This document shows positions 5,866 to 14,549 of a stretch of DNA of 64,000 nt, one piece after another; positions within the stretch are counted from its first letter, which is position 1, and each line of letters opens with the position of its first letter. The notes beneath the pieces were generated by a model, which had not been told where the DNA came from, made no database searches, and saw nothing but the letters and a program-made list of their open reading frames with translations. The stretch is taken from NCBI GenBank assembly GCA_950054155.1, contig CATLOT010000012.1, positions 1-64,000 of the forward strand. Direction: 5' to 3'. Origin of the DNA: an uncultured Bacteriovoracaceae bacterium. Its GTDB lineage: Bacteria; Bdellovibrionota; Bacteriovoracia; Bacteriovoracales; Bacteriovoracaceae. Made by a program: the position numbers and the translations under genes.

Positions 5866-7629
5866 CTAAAAACTATACAAAATTTGAGTTTGGGCTTGAA
5901 GATCTTCGTCTATAAGCTGAGTCTTAAAGCGTATTCCTGCTGTTTTGGAGAAGTTTAATTGGCCTTTAAGGTGGGCCAATAGTTTTGGCTTTCGGTGCCT
6001 ATAATTATCCATTGTGGTCCCAAGTCCGACTCTTAGTCTTAGGTGTGAGGAAAAGTTTCTCATTGCTTCTAGGAGAAGGTCTCCAGAATACTTAAAACGA
6101 TTGTTTTTAACTGAGGGGCTCGAGTAATCCATTTCAAAGGGAAGCACAACTCTAAAGAGGTTCTTAGAGGAACGCCAATTGATCCCTACTAAAGAGCGTA
6201 CATAGGGGCCAAAATCATAGGCTTGTGTTCTTATATTATCTCTTGCCCCAGCTGAAGCTCCCCAAGTAAGGGCAGCTGTTTCATGGATATTAGCTGTGTT
6301 GGCCTCTGCCTTGAAGAGAGTAAACTTTCTCACTTGAAGATTTTTACGGTCGGTATCATAGGCTAGTTTAAAGCTGCCAAGCATAAGTTGAGACCAGTCT
6401 GGAGCACCAAGGGCTGGATCATCATATTCATGAAAGCTAAAGCGATAATCAAAGGTGATGGCATTGAAGTCCTTTTCTTCAAAGGAGAAATGATCATAGC
6501 CAAAGGAAAAGTAGCGCGGTGGATGGATAAGGTGTGGTCCACCTTCATTGCTAAAAGAGAGAGGTTTTGTGGGATAATTATAGTAACTGGCCCTCTTTGC
6601 TTGGAGGCTTCTCTTTTCTTTGACAACTTTCTCTTCTTTTCGTCTTAGTGCACTTCCTTTTTCAAGGTCCATTAAATCGATCTTATAATCGAGGAGATCC
6701 GCCTTATCTTGTTCATTCTGAGGGTTACCTTCTTTCGCACTCTTACTTAAGTTTTGATAACGCTTTTGCACTCTCTTAAATTGACTCGGTCTTTGATTGA
6801 TTTCAGTGACAAGATCATCAGCCTGATTGACAAGAAGAAGGGTTTCACTAGGTAAAACAAAGTAAGGCATTTTCTCAATAAAGTTGAGGGAAGGCCTTAT
6901 CGTATCGAGAAAATAGAGGAGATGATAGCTACAGTTTTCAGAAAGGTAATAGTAATCAAAGAGCGCTTTATCCATTTCCCAGAGGTGGGCCTGAAAGAGC
7001 TCTTTTTCTTCCTCGTTGAAATCTAGCTGGTACTCCCATAAATCTCTTGTTTCGCTGTCATTATATTCAGCAATCTTTATAAAGTAGGGGAGAAGACTAA
7101 AGTTACCTTTAAACCCTCCAACGAGTCCAAGAAGAGCATAAAAGAAAGCATTATCAGTGGTGGGTTGAGCTGCGAAATTAACTCCCCACTCCAGAAAATC
7201 ATTATTGTTATTTTTGCCCTTTATTTTAAAGAGTGTATGACCAAAGGCACTGCTTGGATTGTTAACATAGTAGCTTGCAAATACGATCCATATAGATTCG
7301 AGGTTGAGTTTCCTCTTAAAGTAATTATAGTCAGGGCAATTGTCATTAAAGCTTTTGAGATGACCCTTCTTTTGAAGATAAATTGTTCTTGCAGGGTACT
7401 TACAGCGGGCCTTTGAATCCTTACTTAGTACTTTAATCGCTTCTTTCATTTCAAGTAGGGGGTTATGCCTCCCCTCGGGATGGAAGAAAAAAGAATCATT
7501 GGTGACGAGTGAATCGCTGCCGTCGAGTTGGTAGCGGTATAGATTTAACCATTGGCGGTCAACTTGGGGAGATGCGCCTAATAGAGTTGAATTGAATAGA
7601 ATACAGAGTAGCAGGGATATGAATTTCAT
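5866..7629 (-). CDS. DUF4105 (Lnb N-terminal-like) exported protein
   Basis: A 587-residue protein with a signal peptide (cleavage near TLLGAS). Residues 90-270 match the DUF4105/Lnb N-terminal periplasmic domain, a papain-like fold. It shows 'NNPSSAFGHTLFKI' with the likely catalytic histidine near residue 131, 'LEWGVNFAA', and 'LSENCSYHLLYFLD' with the cysteine near 233. The C-terminal half (about 350-587) alternates polar and hydrophobic residues and ends in 'QTQILYSF', typical of an outer-membrane beta-barrel closing with phenylalanine. This arrangement, a periplasmic catalytic domain followed by a barrel, is common in Gram-negative DUF4105 proteins. The substrate is unknown. It starts immediately after the terminator of the DUF3015 gene, so a promoter must lie in or over that hairpin, or the gene depends on read-through. 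Confidence 0.8.
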   Translation of the reverse strand: MKFISLLLCILFNSTLLGASPQVDRQWLNLYRYQLDGSDSLVTNDSFFFHPEGRHNPLLEMKEAIKVLSKDSKARCKYPARTIYLQKKGHLKSFNDNCPDYNYFKRKLNLESIWIVFASYYVNNPSSAFGHTLFKIKGKNNNNDFLEWGVNFAAQPTTDNAFFYALLGLVGGFKGNFSLLPYFIKIAEYNDSETRDLWEYQLDFNEEEKELFQAHLWEMDKALFDYYYLSENCSYHLLYFLDTIRPSLNFIEKMPYFVLPSETLLLVNQADDLVTEINQRPSQFKRVQKRYQNLSKSAKEGNPQNEQDKADLLDYKIDLMDLEKGSALRRKEEKVVKEKRSLQAKRASYYNYPTKPLSFSNEGGPHLIHPPRYFSFGYDHFSFEEKDFNAITFDYRFSFHEYDDPALGAPDWSQLMLGSFKLAYDTDRKNLQVRKFTLFKAEANTANIHETAALTWGASAGARDNIRTQAYDFGPYVRSLVGINWRSSKNLFRVVLPFEMDYSSPSVKNNRFKYSGDLLLEAMRNFSSHLRLRVGLGTTMDNYRHRKPKLLAHLKGQLNFSKTAGIRFKTQLIDEDLQAQTQILYSF

Positions 7630-8244: not shown

Positions 8245-9006
8245 TCAGATTTTTGATTGCACCTGTTGATGCACTCCTTGGCCACTTTGAGTGAGAGTCC
8301 TGAGGTAAATTTTATCTTTAGGGGCTAAATTTAAAAATTCAAATCCAATGGTCACTTTTGTGCCTGACTCTCTTTGACTCTTTGCGAGAACGTCAAAAGA
8401 GAGAGGAGTCCCCTGAGGATCAATGAACGAAAGCTTTCCTTTTTTAAAGGGCTGCGGTCCTTTTTCGATAACAAAGCTCACCCCACCTGAAGAAATATTT
8501 TCTATCGTACCAATACGGACTTCACTATCTCCCTCGTGAAAGAGGTAGCCTTTGATAGAGCACTCAGTTCTTCCTCGAGCATCCCAGTACTTTCTCATAT
8601 AGCGGCTTAGAATAAAGCGCTGGATAAGAGGATAGAAGAGGTAGAGAAACATCACGAGATTAAATACTTCAAATAGGATCACACTGGCATGAGGATACTT
8701 TGTCATATAAGGCCAGGAGTAGGGAGTGAATGTTAAGAGTTGATAAAACTTAAAGAGGCTAAACATAAAGTAAAGGCCATAGGCAAAGTTGGAGTAGGTA
8801 AGCAAAAGAAGACCTGTTAAAGGGCTTATGAGCCAAAAAAGAAAGAAGCGACTAAAGGATTGGCTATTTTCCATTATATTGGACCAGATTAAGCTCCACT
8901 CCAGACCAGTTTGAGTTTTAAGAACGAGAACCTTAAGAAGGGGTTCTGTAATGAGAACGATACTGAGAATCGTAATCGCACGAAAGAGTGTCTTTGCCTG
9001 ACTCAT
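8245..9006 (-). CDS. Membrane-anchored PilZ domain protein
   Basis: A 253-residue protein. Residues 1-140 contain about four membrane helices; residues 145-240 form a PilZ-type beta-barrel. The c-di-GMP motif is visible as 'RKYWDARGRTECS' (arginine-rich switch) followed by 'NISSGGVSFVIE', corresponding to the (D/N)xSxxG motif. PilZ domains bind cyclic di-GMP and couple it to motility, secretion or envelope functions; the membrane part suggests it acts at the inner membrane. It is monocistronic as far as the sequence shows, with a gap of 149 nt to DUF3015. The first arginine motif is not a textbook RxxxR, so ligand binding is likely but unproven. Confidence 0.75.
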   Translation of the reverse strand: MSQAKTLFRAITILSIVLITEPLLKVLVLKTQTGLEWSLIWSNIMENSQSFSRFFLFWLISPLTGLLLLTYSNFAYGLYFMFSLFKFYQLLTFTPYSWPYMTKYPHASVILFEVFNLVMFLYLFYPLIQRFILSRYMRKYWDARGRTECSIKGYLFHEGDSEVRIGTIENISSGGVSFVIEKGPQPFKKGKLSFIDPQGTPLSFDVLAKSQRESGTKVTIGFEFLNLAPKDKIYLRTLTQSGQGVHQQVQSKI

Positions 9007-9123: not shown

Positions 9124-9169
9124 CGTCTCTACCTACCTACACGTCTCTACCTACCTACACGTCTTTACA
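9124..9169. repeat. Tandem repeat, 2.5 copies of an 18-bp unit
   Basis: The unit CGTCTCTACCTACCTACA occurs exactly at 9124-9141 and 9142-9159, and a third 10-bp partial copy with one change is at 9160-9169. Inside the unit the tetramer CTAC/ACCT is itself repeated. The array ends over the stop codon of the MscS gene (9165-9167), so copy number changes would alter the 3' end of that gene or its UTR. Confidence 0.9.
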
Positions 9170-9965
9170 GAGGGCGTTCAATTTCAAGTTCATTGAATAC
9201 TTCGTGGACTCGAGTGACGATGTCTGTTTCGAAGGCTTTTTCGTATCTCACATCAAGAACATAGCTCTTAACTGAAAACTTTAAAGCAAGCTTCATGGCA
9301 ATCTCACACTCTTTGACTGTTACGACAACGGGTTTAGCGAGATAGACGTAGCGAGAAGTCACGACCACTTCTCTTAGAATTTCACTCACTTGATCGATAT
9401 TAACTGAAAGTCCTGTGTGAAAGTTCACAACGACCATCATATCCAGGGCGCCATAGTTTCCTGAGCTCACTTCATCAGAGAGAAGTTTGGTATTTGGAAT
9501 AGTGACAACATTATCGTCGAGTGTGACAAGTCTAACTGCACGAAGGCCAATCGATTTGACCTCTCCGTAAATATCCCCAATCTGGATGCGGTCGCCAACC
9601 TGTGCCGGGCGATCGAAGAGCATAACAATACCACTGACGAAGGAAGCAATGATGTCCTTAATCGCGAAACCGAAAGCGACGGCAATAGAGCCCCCAAGTG
9701 CTAAGATGAGTTCTTTTGGAGGGCGAAGTGTAGAGTAGACAAGTAAGGGGAGACCAAGAATGTAGAGGATAAATGTAAGGATCGTTGTGATTTGGAGAAT
9801 AAAGAGGCGCTTGTGATTAAAGCGCAGACCTAGATTTTCTCCAAGTTTAGCAAGACCTTTTGCAATAAGATAAAGAACGATAATCCCCGAAAAGAGCAAG
9901 AAGAGGCTATCAAACTTAAAAAGTTCGAAGAGTTGCCCTAATTGGTCGAGTTGATTTTCATTCAT
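9165..9965 (-). CDS. MscS-family mechanosensitive channel
   Basis: A 266-residue protein with a short amphipathic N-terminus and three membrane helices. The pore helix TM3 reads 'LALGGSIAVAFGFAIKDIIA', with the Gly/Ala-packed pattern of MscS. The beta domain follows: 'FDRPAQVGDRIQIGDIYGEV', then 'VVTIPNTKLLSDEVSSGNYG'. The C-terminal alpha/beta domain forms the cytoplasmic cage. Length is close to E. coli MscS (286). It lies 10 nt downstream of a membrane ATPase gene on the same strand, an unusual partner for a channel thought to be gated by membrane tension alone. MscS-like channels release solutes on hypo-osmotic shock; here the context raises the possibility of nucleotide-dependent gating or assembly. 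The 3' end runs into an 18-bp tandem repeat. Confidence 0.93.
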   Translation of the reverse strand: MNENQLDQLGQLFELFKFDSLFLLFSGIIVLYLIAKGLAKLGENLGLRFNHKRLFILQITTILTFILYILGLPLLVYSTLRPPKELILALGGSIAVAFGFAIKDIIASFVSGIVMLFDRPAQVGDRIQIGDIYGEVKSIGLRAVRLVTLDDNVVTIPNTKLLSDEVSSGNYGALDMMVVVNFHTGLSVNIDQVSEILREVVVTSRYVYLAKPVVVTVKECEIAMKLALKFSVKSYVLDVRYEKAFETDIVTRVHEVFNELEIERPL

Positions 9966-9975
9966 TCTTTAATTC

Positions 9976-12321
9976 CTAAAAGTAGACGAAGTTTTTAGCT
10001 TTGAGGATATTGAGGACATGGTATTGACCTTCGACTAAAAAGCTATATCTCTTTGATGTCTCATCTCTTTTGATGAAATTATTTTCTAATCCAATTCTTA
10101 AGCTATGACGGACAAGCCCTTCTTTCATATCTGTCACTTGGATAAATTCATTCGTCGTGAGGTTCTCATGGCGCATGAGTGCTGCGAAGACAAAGAAAGC
10201 TTCATCTGCCAGTCCCTTGAGGACAGAGAGGTCATGGGTAAGGGGGAGCCCGACTTTAAGGCGCTTACCATAGAGGGGCTTAAGGGCCCTTAGCCAAAGC
10301 TTTTCAGCTAGCTCGGGATTACCTTGAGATTGGTCCCAGAGAAGGCGGAAAAACATATTTTCGACATAAGAAAAGTCGCCGCCAGTTGCACTCTTGGTTT
10401 TTACGGCGCGAATAATATCGGCATAGCTTAGTGAGTATCCTGAGCGTTCGTGGCGCTTAAGGATGTATTCTTGAAGCTCTTCATCGTTAAAGCCTTTGAG
10501 GCGAAATACCGTGCGGAAGTATTTATTTTTGTGAAAGACTTGCTCAAGGTATGCCCAGCTGTAGGTATTAAAAGCCGCGACCCAGAAGATATTATCAGTT
10601 CTGAGATTAAGTGCTTCAAAGAAGGCTTCAATTCCTTTAAGTCCACCGAAATGAGTCAGAAAGAAGTTATGAGCATCATCTAAGATGATGACGAGCTTTT
10701 TATCCTCTTCAACGAGTTTTTTATCAAAATCCAATAGTCCAAAGACATCGGCGAGGGCTTCTCCTGCAACAAGATTGCCAAGGAATTTAAAAACTTCATT
10801 CTTGCTTGTAATCTTGGGGGGAACAGAGGCAACGATGACTTCGGGTTTGAGCTCATGGCCTTGAAGCTCTTTTTCAAGATGTCTGATAATTTGAGTCTTT
10901 CCAATTCCCTTGTCTCCATAGATCGCAAGACTGTGCTCTTCACTAAGATCTTTTAGCCATTCATCGACTTCACTCGTGATTTCATCGAGTCTTTGATTCT
11001 TAGATTTAATCCAAAGAGCGTCATCGTCATCCTTACTTAGCCCAAACCATTCCTTATATTCTTCAGGTAGCTTTGCTTCTTCGTGGCCCTTGAGGTTTTC
11101 ATTGGATTCAAGCTTTCGTTGAAAAACTTTGGAAAAGATCGCCTTTCCAACCCCAACTTCAAGAAACTTCTCCTTGAGTTCACGAAAGAGCGGAAGAAGG
11201 AGGAGGTAGAGAAAAGTAATAGTGCGGATAATAAAATTGAGGATGGCTACAGATGTCGCTTTCTCATAGAAAGCTAGAATCTTACCCGTAAAGGCTTTCT
11301 TTGCTTGATGATCAATTTCCGGTGACCAAGAACGAACAAGCCATATATACAAAATAGCTCCACAAACCCAAAGGAGCAGATAGAGCTCTTGATAGAGAAG
11401 ACCTTTGCCTGCAACAGAGCTCACAAGGTGAAGGCTTAAAAGGGCTGCAAAGAAGAAACGCCCAAGAGCTTTTGCTGCGGAATAGATCTTTGCTCTAATT
11501 TGTCTTCCTCTATTAAGTTGGAGGTCTTCAGAAAAAACAATGAAGAGATTGAGAACGAGTTGGCGAAAAATTTTATAGTAGAGATAGTAGAGAATAAAAG
11601 GAATGAGGAGATCTAGTTCAGCGACAATAGTCTTTCTGATAACACCAGAGAAAACGTTAAGGGCTAAGATGCTTAAAAGAAGAGGGATGAATGGGCCTAC
11701 TCTTTGAAGAATAATTGCCATTCTTCTTCTTGTTGGAGTGAATCTGTAGGGGTTACTTAGATCTTCTCTGACATTCTCCATTGTCTTTAAGAGGTAGCTA
11801 TTGAGTTTAAGAACGAGAAGAGGCAAAAGAATGAAAAGAAGAGTCGAAAGAATTTCCGGAAGCAGGGACCTAATGAGGTGATATGTTCCTTTGTTCTCTT
11901 TGCCTTTTTCTTGAATCGCTTGATATTTGATTTCAAAAATTCGAATCCATCGTTGAGGAATTATTTTAAGCTCAAAGAGAGAGTCCTGAATGAACTGTGA
12001 GGTTGAAAGGCTCAGATAATCGCTCGCAATAACCTGGTAGCGTAGGTTGCCTGCCTTAAAGAGGAGTTCCGTCCGTTTGGATTCCCAGTCAGCACGGGGT
12101 CCATTAACCTTACTGTAGGGGATGTTGAAGAGGTCTTTCCAAAGTTTTGTCGTTTGGTGGTAGTCGAGTTGAGCTACAGTGAGTTTATCGAGCGAATGGA
12201 CTCGCTCCTGTAGCTCGGGAAGTGTTGTGGACTCGCCATCAATTTGGGAGTCCTCAATTGCAAAAGAAGCAAATGAAAAGAGAAAAGCTATCAATATCGT
12301 AAAAAGTTTTCCCTTTCTCAT
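9976..12321 (-). CDS. Membrane-embedded P-loop (AAA/STAND-like) ATPase paired with MscS
   Basis: A 781-residue protein with a signal peptide (1-21, ending SFAIE) and a periplasmic helical segment (about 25-140). Several membrane helices follow (about 150-400). The cytoplasmic nucleotide-binding module has Walker A GDKGIGKT near 467-474, Walker B 'LVIILDDAH' near 542-550, and a sensor-like 'NIFWVAAFNTYSW'. The last 150 residues look like a winged-helix or lid region ('TNEFIQVTDMKEGLVRHSL'). The shape, membrane sensor plus AAA-type switch, recalls KAP- or STAND-type NTPases, but I do not recognise a named family. The downstream MscS gene starts 10 nt after its stop, so the two are probably co-translated. 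Upstream is icd (20-nt gap), possibly the same transcript. Role in gating or signalling is inference. Confidence 0.75.
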   Translation of the reverse strand: MRKGKLFTILIAFLFSFASFAIEDSQIDGESTTLPELQERVHSLDKLTVAQLDYHQTTKLWKDLFNIPYSKVNGPRADWESKRTELLFKAGNLRYQVIASDYLSLSTSQFIQDSLFELKIIPQRWIRIFEIKYQAIQEKGKENKGTYHLIRSLLPEILSTLLFILLPLLVLKLNSYLLKTMENVREDLSNPYRFTPTRRRMAIILQRVGPFIPLLLSILALNVFSGVIRKTIVAELDLLIPFILYYLYYKIFRQLVLNLFIVFSEDLQLNRGRQIRAKIYSAAKALGRFFFAALLSLHLVSSVAGKGLLYQELYLLLWVCGAILYIWLVRSWSPEIDHQAKKAFTGKILAFYEKATSVAILNFIIRTITFLYLLLLPLFRELKEKFLEVGVGKAIFSKVFQRKLESNENLKGHEEAKLPEEYKEWFGLSKDDDDALWIKSKNQRLDEITSEVDEWLKDLSEEHSLAIYGDKGIGKTQIIRHLEKELQGHELKPEVIVASVPPKITSKNEVFKFLGNLVAGEALADVFGLLDFDKKLVEEDKKLVIILDDAHNFFLTHFGGLKGIEAFFEALNLRTDNIFWVAAFNTYSWAYLEQVFHKNKYFRTVFRLKGFNDEELQEYILKRHERSGYSLSYADIIRAVKTKSATGGDFSYVENMFFRLLWDQSQGNPELAEKLWLRALKPLYGKRLKVGLPLTHDLSVLKGLADEAFFVFAALMRHENLTTNEFIQVTDMKEGLVRHSLRIGLENNFIKRDETSKRYSFLVEGQYHVLNILKAKNFVYF

Positions 12322-12341: not shown

Positions 12342-14549
12342 CTAAATAGACTCAATGATAGTGTTAAGCTTTTGGCTTGGTCTCATGACTTTGGCCATAA
12401 GCTCTACACTTGGGTGGTAGTAGCCACCAATGTCTTGAGCAGAACCTTGGACATTATTAAGTTCTTTAATAATGTCATCTTTAGCTGCATTCATCGTCTT
12501 GAAAATACTTTCAAAGCGAGATTTTAACTCCGAATCTTCTGTTTGCTCACTTAGAGCTTGAGCCCAAAAGAGAGAAAGGAAGAAGTGAGTGCCTCTATTA
12601 TCAAGCTCTCCTGCCTTACGTGAAGGTGACTTATTTTGGAGGAGATACTCAGTATTCGCTTTATCAAGAGCCTTGGCGATAACGGCAAGCTTGTTGTTAT
12701 TTGTTTTCTCTGCAGTTTCATTGAGAGAGACAGCGAGGGCCAGAAATTCACCAAGAGAGTCCCAGCGAAGGTGATTTTCTTCAAGAACTTGTTCCACATG
12801 TTTTGGAGCAGACCCACCAGCACCTGTTTCATAGAGACCACCACCGGCAAGGAGGGGCACGATAGAAAGCATTTTTGCGGAAGTGCCAAGTTCGAGAATT
12901 GGGAAAAGGTCTGTAAGGTAGTCACGAAGGACGTTTCCAGTAATTGAAATCGTGTCTTTGCCGGCCTTAATTGTTTCACAACTTAAGCGAGTGGCTTCGG
13001 CAGGGGCAAGAATACGAATATCAAGACCTGTTGTATCGTGATCTTTTAGATACGTTTCAACCTTGGTAATTAGGTTTTTGTCGTGAGCTCTATTAGCATC
13101 AAGCCAGAAAATCGCAAGGTTCCCTGTGGCCTTTGCTCTGTTTACACCAAGCTTGACCCAGTCGCGGATGGCAATATCTTTAGTTTGGCACATTCTGAAA
13201 ATGTCACCTTCTTGAACGTCATGCTTCATAAGAACTGTTCCTGAAGCATCGACCACTTGAACATGACCTGCGGCCTTCATCTCAAACGTCTTATCATGAG
13301 AGCCGTACTCTTCAGCTTTCTTGGCCATAAGACCAACATTAGAAACATTACCCATTTTAGTAACGTCAAAGGCTCCGTTCTCTTTACAGAAATTAATTGT
13401 CTCTTGATAGACAGAAGCGTAGCTACGATCAGGAATCATGGCCTTAGTGTCATGGGTCTTATTATCAGCGCCCCACATCTTACCGCCAGCTCTGATTGCT
13501 GCAGGCATAGAAGCATCAATAATGACATCACTTGGAACATGAAGGTTCGTAATACCTTTGTCTGAGTTAACCATTGCTAGGTGAGGTCTCTTTTCATAGT
13601 TCGCCTCAATAGCCTTAAGAACAGCTTCTTTCTTGCTGGCCTCTAGCTTATCAAGCTTTGCATAGAGGTCACCAATTCCATTGTTAGGATTAACCCCAAT
13701 CGCTTCAAAGTCAGCTGCAAACTGTTCAAAAACGTCAGCGTAGTATGTTTTTACGGCGTGACCAAAAATGATGGGGTCACTGACTTTCATCATCGTCGCC
13801 TTCATGTGAAGAGAAAGAAGAATGTCCTCTTTTTTGGCGTTTTCAATTTCACGAGCGAAGAAGTCTTTAAGTTTTGCTGCACTCATCACGCCAGAGTCGA
13901 TAACTTCTCCGGCAAGAATTTTAAAGTTGTCTTTAAGAACTTGCGTGTCTCCCTTTTGAGAAACGAACTCAATTCTAACGTCGCCTTCTGATTCTTTTAC
14001 GACAGATTGTTCGCTACCAAAGAAGTCTCCTTCATTCATGCTCGCCACATGAGTTTTTGAATCTTTGAGCCATTCTCCCATTGAGTGAGGATTATTCTTT
14101 GCAAACTCCTTAACAGCTCCAGCTACACGACGGTCGGAGTTACCTTCTCTAAGCACTGGGTTAACAGCAGAGCCAAGAACTTTAGCGTACTTCTTTTTAA
14201 TTTCTTCTTGTTCTGCATTGAGGTCTCCTTCCGGAAATTCAGGAAGGTCATAGCCTTGTCCTTGAAGCTCTTTAATACACTCTTTGAGCTGTGGAATAGA
14301 GGCTGAGATATTGGGAAGTTTAATAATATTGGCGTTAGGGTCCTGAGTGAGCTGACCGAGTTCTGCAAGATCATCACTTACTTTTTCTTTGAGTCTTTCA
14401 GGGAATTGAGCAAGTACTCTAGCCGCAAGAGAGATGTCTCTTGTCTCTACTTCAACACCGCCATGCTTTGAAAAAGCACGAACGATTGGGAGGAAGGATT
14501 GAGTCGCTAAAAAAGGAGCTTCGTCCGTAAGAGTGTAGATGATTTTCAT
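12342..14549 (-). CDS. icd: Monomeric NADP-dependent isocitrate dehydrogenase
   Basis: A 735-residue enzyme converting isocitrate to 2-oxoglutarate, CO2 and NADPH in the TCA cycle. Length and sequence match the monomeric IDH class (about 740 residues) rather than the dimeric E. coli Icd. The N-terminus is '[20 protein letters not shown]', with '[19 protein letters not shown]' following. Central blocks include '[16 protein letters not shown]', '[19 protein letters not shown]' and '[19 protein letters not shown]'. Shine-Dalgarno GAAGGA lies 8 nt before ATG. Cytoplasmic. Downstream (20 nt) is the membrane ATPase and MscS pair on the same strand. Nothing appears truncated. Confidence 0.97.

Follow-up and report, generated by a model that had tools for sequence, protein, structure and literature searches.

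Channels of the MscS type serve as the textbook example of a pore gated by nothing but membrane tension. In Escherichia coli, MscK (KefA) and MscM add further membrane helices and a periplasmic region to an MscS core, each as a single polypeptide that has no nucleoside triphosphatase (NTPase). In the bacterial cyclic nucleotide-gated (bCNG) channels, as they are cited in PMC4560390, an MscS-type pore is controlled by a fused cyclic-nucleotide-binding domain. We analysed a stretch of 64,000 nucleotides (nt) from an uncultured Bacteriovoracaceae bacterium of the phylum Bdellovibrionota (GCA_950054155.1, contig CATLOT010000012.1), here called the window, in which a gene for a membrane P-loop ATPase is followed by an MscS-family gene. 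Unlike in MscK and MscM, the extra helices and the periplasmic region are found on the separate ATPase. An earlier reading of the window, made from the sequence only (the sequence-only reading), had described a 781-residue ATPase and a standard-size MscS protein 10 nt apart. The open reading frames agreed with this, MscS lying downstream:

9976-12321, minus strand: ATPase, 781 residues, putative regulatory partner (open reading frame list; Pfam AAA_22, 2.2e-7)
9165-9965, minus strand: MscS-family channel, 266 residues, ATPase-associated clade (Pfam MS_channel_2nd, 5.9e-20)

From the results described below, we conclude that the two genes make up a module that has not been described before, with an NTPase switch dedicated to one clade of MscS proteins.

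The ATPase and its MscS protein occur as a pair

The strictness of the pairing was examined in 291 genomes of the phylum, mostly draft assemblies. The ATPase was present in 52 of them, and MscS at E<=1e-40 was found in the identical 52 genomes. Across the whole family, the ATPase occurred in 42 of 129 genomes and MscS in the same 42. Both scans combined gave 60 ATPase copies in 59 genomes, each with MscS directly downstream and none unpaired on either side; these pairs come from related genomes and are not 60 independent events. The cut at 1e-40 was not arbitrary, since with a looser cut in the 59 genomes the paired MscS proteins reached at least 1e-62 and all others 1e-20 or weaker.

The sole clade member without an ATPase was a C-terminal relic of 108 codons in G022 (L121:6620-6943, minus strand) with no trace of the ATPase nearby, an apparent loss of the whole pair. 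In G173, from the same genus, one TAA after about 137 codons breaks the ATPase frame (L064:3999-5858, minus strand) and MscS is intact, which may be an intermediate of decay or an assembly error. An intact MscS of the clade without the ATPase was not found in the phylum and family scans. The sequence-only reading had held that ATPase homologues without MscS, or MscS homologues without the ATPase, would make the pairing accidental, and neither was observed at the 60 loci. Its proposal of a dedicated membrane ATPase for MscS, without a named counterpart, was strongly supported by this pairing and by the distinct MscS clade.

Genomes with and without the pair were found side by side within the genera g5, g7, g13, g16 and g20, and both genes were always present or absent together. 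For example, G299 carries the pair, and G032, G242 and G300 are without both genes. The only genome with a double copy, G282, contains two complete ATPase-MscS pairs. Protein distances of ATPase and MscS varied in parallel (matrix correlation r=0.93, whereas the highest value among 1000 permutations was 0.21). Of 25 splits with support in the ATPase tree, 22 recurred in the MscS tree. No other gene recurred widely beside the pair among the loci of the relatives. Because the trees agree, the other neighbours are unconserved and the presence is patchy, the pair is gained and lost as a unit.

The spacing was then compared at the loci of 40 relatives. Relative to the ATPase stop, the MscS start was located between -20 and +6 nt, most commonly as an ATG at -8 or -11 that falls within the final ATPase codons. 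The reading frames overlapped in 38 of the 40 loci; the distance is +6 in L079 and +10 in the window. As judged from the frames, this spacing appears typical of translational coupling. Taken together, our results show that ATPase and MscS are passed on as one translationally coupled unit, in this arrangement, and that each is specific to the other.

Pairs on plasmids of other phyla

The spread outside the Bdellovibrionota is known through plasmid records only. A plasmid search with MscS detected clade members in Novosphingobium (two plasmids), Caulobacter (one plasmid), Halomonas (one megaplasmid) and the haloarchaeon Salinirubellus (one plasmid). In Novosphingobium, an 'AAA family ATPase' of 1110 residues is followed by MscS 2 nt on, and in Caulobacter MscS overlaps the gene of an 'ATP-binding protein' of 860 residues by 4 nt. 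The ATPase profile built from the Bdellovibrionota matched all three partners from the Alphaproteobacteria (1.2e-43, 8.5e-37 and 8.3e-37). The Caulobacter pair is followed by another gene with an MscS domain, which is of a different type (L114:6702-7640, plus strand), and this locus is possibly a three-gene version.

The Salinirubellus partner has 331 residues (L115:4790-5785, plus strand) and its gene overlaps the MscS gene by 4 nt. The ATPase profile matched it at 8e-9 over the region from Walker B to sensor 1, and the GG, W..YL and GN...A..W marks are retained. This partner is soluble, without the membrane region, and is reduced to the AAA-like and the C-terminal part. Because of this reduction, the cytoplasmic ATPase-like part and the C-terminal part are regarded as the common core, to which the membrane helices and the periplasmic domain are additions.

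On the megaplasmid of Halomonas sp. PA16-9, a very divergent, frame-broken relative was located upstream of MscS (L116:4500-5738, plus strand). It was recognised by eye only and the ATPase profile gave no match; the broken frame could be an assembly error or decay. A partner was demonstrable for four of the five plasmid-borne MscS proteins of the clade and is probable for the fifth. Two further matches were rejected. The Sphingobium plasmid match was an outer-membrane usher beside an ordinary MscS, and the Paracoccus match was a larger MscS protein of 807 residues with no adjoining ATPase.

Domains and motifs of the ATPase

A signal peptide, a periplasmic domain, several membrane helices and a P-loop NTPase with intact Walker A and B motifs had been assigned to the ATPase by the sequence-only reading. 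Hydropathy and the AAA_22 match led to the same architecture, both Walker motifs were present, and a winged-helix-like C-terminus was recognised in addition:

12259-12321, minus strand: signal-peptide-like segment, residues 1-21 (MRKGKLFTILIAFLFSFASFA); hydropathy peak at residues 4-22, family-averaged 1.54; cleavage site placed by eye
11872-12258, minus strand: predicted periplasmic part, residues 22-150 (from a comparison of length and hydropathy among 41 homologues)
11176-11865, minus strand: membrane region, residues 153-382 (family-averaged hydropathy, loop charge)
10447-10989, minus strand: AAA+/STAND-like P-loop domain, residues 445-625 (profile matches, homologue alignment)
10894-10917, minus strand: Walker A GDKGIGKT, residues 469-476; lysine kept in 39 of 40 homologues
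10675-10692, minus strand: Walker B VIILDD, residues 544-549; D548 kept in 38 of 40
10315-10323, minus strand: GNP (GxP-like) motif, residues 667-669; G667 invariant, N668 and P669 in 39 of 40
9979-10230, minus strand: winged-helix-like C-terminal domain, residues 698-781 (family members matched by TrmB, MarR and Sta1 profiles, all weakly)

The periplasmic part varied among the 41 homologues from almost none to about 370 residues. Homologues of about 1020 residues were considered as ATPase-MscS fusions, but the extra length was a longer periplasmic N-terminus and MscS was still a separate gene. The membrane region consists of five clear hydrophobic segments plus a sixth at residues 358-382. 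If the ATPase domain is cytoplasmic, this sixth segment would not be a full crossing, and the topology parity suggests that it is interfacial or re-entrant.

Among the Pfam profiles, solely AAA_22 scored above its cut-off with the ATPase (31.7 bits versus 27; 2.2e-7), and it was matched by 38 of 40 homologues at 0.01. The nSTAND, NACHT, NB-ARC, AAA_16 and ATPase_2 profiles matched more weakly. The Walker A glycines were invariant across the 40 ATPases and the C-terminal end KNF[IL]Y is conserved in the family. Nucleotide binding by the ATPase would appear to be under selection, strong hydrolysis being less certain. A sequence search of the PDB gave no match to the single ATPase, and its profile found only generic P-loop and coiled-coil matches.

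Signature residues of the paired MscS proteins

The MS_channel profile matched the 266-residue protein with 71.6 bits (cut-off 20.2), and the nearest PDB sequences were MscK (3.8e-16, closest), MscM and MscS. The pore-helix residues G92, A95, A97 and G99, which align with G101, G104, A106 and G108 of the E. coli protein, were conserved in 41 of 41 sequences. Two features set the clade apart:

9654-9659, minus strand: pore-helix residues K103-D104, which take the place of Q112-G113 of E. coli MscS
9435-9467, minus strand: SSGNYGALDMM, residues 167-177, a signature of the clade that aligns with positions 176-185 of E. coli MscS

K103-D104 was observed in all 41 clade members; in the five distant paired MscS proteins, the aspartate is present in five and the lysine in four. 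From the signature, N170, G172 and M176 were kept into the Alphaproteobacteria and Archaea and were missing from most other MscS proteins. Further clade-specific residues are a tyrosine preceding the conserved G143, and Y235, E242 and R252 in the alpha/beta domain. Compared with a background of ten sequences only, most of the clade-specific residues were kept in the alphaproteobacterial and archaeal paired MscS proteins and absent from most others. For this reason they are candidate contacts with the ATPase. In the E. coli MscS structure, the stretch 176-185 connects the beta domain with the alpha/beta domain next to the side portals. Besides the paired gene, the window genome encodes six MscS proteins of other types, which makes seven in all.

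Genes flanking the pair

A third gene, not mentioned in the sequence-only reading, stands in line with the pair:

12342-14549, minus strand: monomeric isocitrate dehydrogenase (icd), 20 nt upstream of the ATPase gene

In the window genome icd, the ATPase and MscS may be co-transcribed. An icd gene adjoining the pair was found in none of the relatives examined. On the other side, 158 nt 3' of MscS, a membrane protein with a C-terminal PilZ (cyclic di-GMP type) domain is encoded (8245-9006, minus strand), and this neighbour was also not conserved among the relatives. A protein with an Lnb_N periplasmic domain and DUF7840/DUF7843 was observed at 5866-7629 (minus strand). Its gene lies in a run with those of a DUF3015 protein and of two proteins of 463 and 659 residues without solid Pfam matches.

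Proposed mechanism and alternative explanations

The ATPase is probably the obligate regulatory partner of the MscS pore, and the two genes would then form a self-contained channel-plus-switch module. The MscS-like protein would be the pore, and the ATPase would be anchored in the same membrane through its own helices. Its ATP-binding domain of the STAND/ORC-type AAA+ kind and the winged helix would be placed in the cytoplasm, the compartment into which the MscS cage projects. In many versions, the nucleotide state of this domain could be set by the periplasmic input domain and passed on to the cage or the paddles, so that the channel would open more easily or less easily, or be locked shut. 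As the best mechanism we infer that the channel is controlled in a nucleotide-dependent way; physical contact of the two proteins, a direction of control and an input (envelope stress, turgor or energy state) are presumed in it. A plain osmotic valve is unlikely as the sole role because of the six other MscS genes in the genome. Only tentatively do we extend this to an ATP-controlled MscS-type pore that would be a new channel class in Bacteria and Archaea, gated by a separate STAND/AAA+ switch reading a periplasmic signal or the energy state.

Several observations weigh against nucleotide-dependent control. The residue after the Walker B aspartate varied across the 40 ATPases (19 E, 14 D, 6 N and 1 Q), and so did the candidate arginine finger (R in 27 and G in 10 of 40). 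The Salinirubellus partner has GRES in place of GKS/T and has lost the Walker A lysine; it possibly no longer binds nucleotide, and therefore nucleotide control may not be universal. An AlphaFold2 model of the ATPase with one relative had a predicted local distance difference test (pLDDT) score of 37 and was unusable. Moreover, nearly all of the support comes from genomic linkage, which would be equally expected for a dedicated assembly factor. In view of the variable second acid and arginine finger and the archaeal lysine, the term 'nucleotide-gated' used in the sequence-only reading was too specific. Walker motifs that are kept, together with a second acid and an arginine finger that vary, rather give the pattern of a switch.

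An assembly or quality-control factor would be an AAA+ protein that inserts, assembles or removes MscS without gating it. AAA+ proteins often remodel membrane proteins, and the strict 1:1 linkage, the ATPase-first order and the overlapping frames fit such a factor as well as they fit a regulator. However, other MscS proteins need none, and six of other types are encoded in the same genome. The large, size-variable periplasmic domain resembles a sensor, and the variable catalytic positions suit a switch better than a power-stroke unfoldase. We therefore regard a dedicated assembly factor as unlikely, if worth keeping in mind.

The chances of an anti-phage or conflict system, in which a STAND-like sensor triggers a depolarising pore as effector, are slim. 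The STAND, NACHT and nSTAND-type matches, the channel-like effector, the patchy presence in 42 of 129 genomes and the shifting genomic location would be in line with it, and the sequence-only reading had suggested an abortive defence. The neighbours of the pair did not bear this out. The 127 neighbours at 26 loci, taken without a matched background set, were for the most part housekeeping genes of diverse kinds (aconitase, NhaA, Lon, RNase E, tRNA ligase), and defence-type matches among them were scattered, for example one helicase. PADLOC gave the window proteins and three long homologues only weak matches, at about 1e-3 or poorer; the window ATPase matched mad8 and DpdH alone, with values of about 1e-3 and in the P-loop region, and for the window MscS there was none. 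No copy of the window ATPase was found on a phage or plasmid, and two viral-contig scans were empty. In addition, the sensor seems to face outward, since most copies have a signal peptide and a periplasmic domain.

Even less probable is a predation system for entering or leaving prey, a role close to the one on entering another cell that the sequence-only reading had considered. The phylum includes predators, and an enrichment of MscS genes in marine Bdellovibrionota genomes has been reported, in a paper that does not identify the ATPase-paired clade (PMC8067016). But the pair is missing from two thirds of the family, and it occurs in Novosphingobium and Caulobacter, which are not predators, as well as in a haloarchaeon. 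Finally, co-location of two unrelated membrane genes in one operon without functional coupling, for which it can be said that icd is also in line here so that tight spacing proves little, is refuted for practical purposes by the pairing at all 60 loci, by icd adjoining the pair nowhere else, by the congruent trees and by the recurrence of the pair in a second bacterial phylum and in Archaea.

The regulatory reading bears on how MscS-type pores are used. If, in an archaeon and at least two bacterial phyla, one clade of MscS never occurs intact unless an ATP-binding partner is present, the same pore would have come under energetic or signal control there. From the pairing at all 60 loci and outside the phylum, some "mechanical" channels are probably controlled by an energy-using partner. 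The question why cells keep many MscS paralogues, seven in this genome, becomes testable with a two-gene system, and an AAA+/STAND family of obscure role gains a concrete target.

Comparison with known systems

A description of an ATPase-coupled MscS was found neither in Pfam, NCBIfam, PADLOC and the PDB nor in the open-access literature, subscription journals and preprints being outside this search. Pfam, NCBIfam and PADLOC also placed the window proteins in no named subfamily or system. A split MscK-like protein was considered and rejected, since hhalign of the ATPase family against MscK/MscM gave a probability of 1.4% and showed no homology; in Pfam, no N-terminal match of the MscK/MscM type was found in the proteins of the pair. 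With E. coli MscS the window protein shares the family, a similar size and the glycine/alanine pattern of the pore helix, whereas its clade has K-D for Q112-G113, its own cytoplasmic signatures and another C-terminal end.

The bCNG channels, to the extent that they are described in the citing paper, are alike in their working and indicate that an MscS pore under a nucleotide-binding module is possible in principle. The module is fused there, whereas here it is a separate P-loop NTPase, and no cyclic-nucleotide-binding domain was detected by Pfam in either window protein. The STAND, ORC-CDC6 and ExeA-like NTPases of the AAA_22 type share with the window ATPase the AAA_22 match and the GNP motif; a winged helix after the P-loop domain, matched weakly by the TrmB, MarR and Sta1 profiles, is a candidate for a further common feature. 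In contrast to them, the window ATPase has a signal peptide, a periplasmic domain, membrane helices and the tie to a channel.

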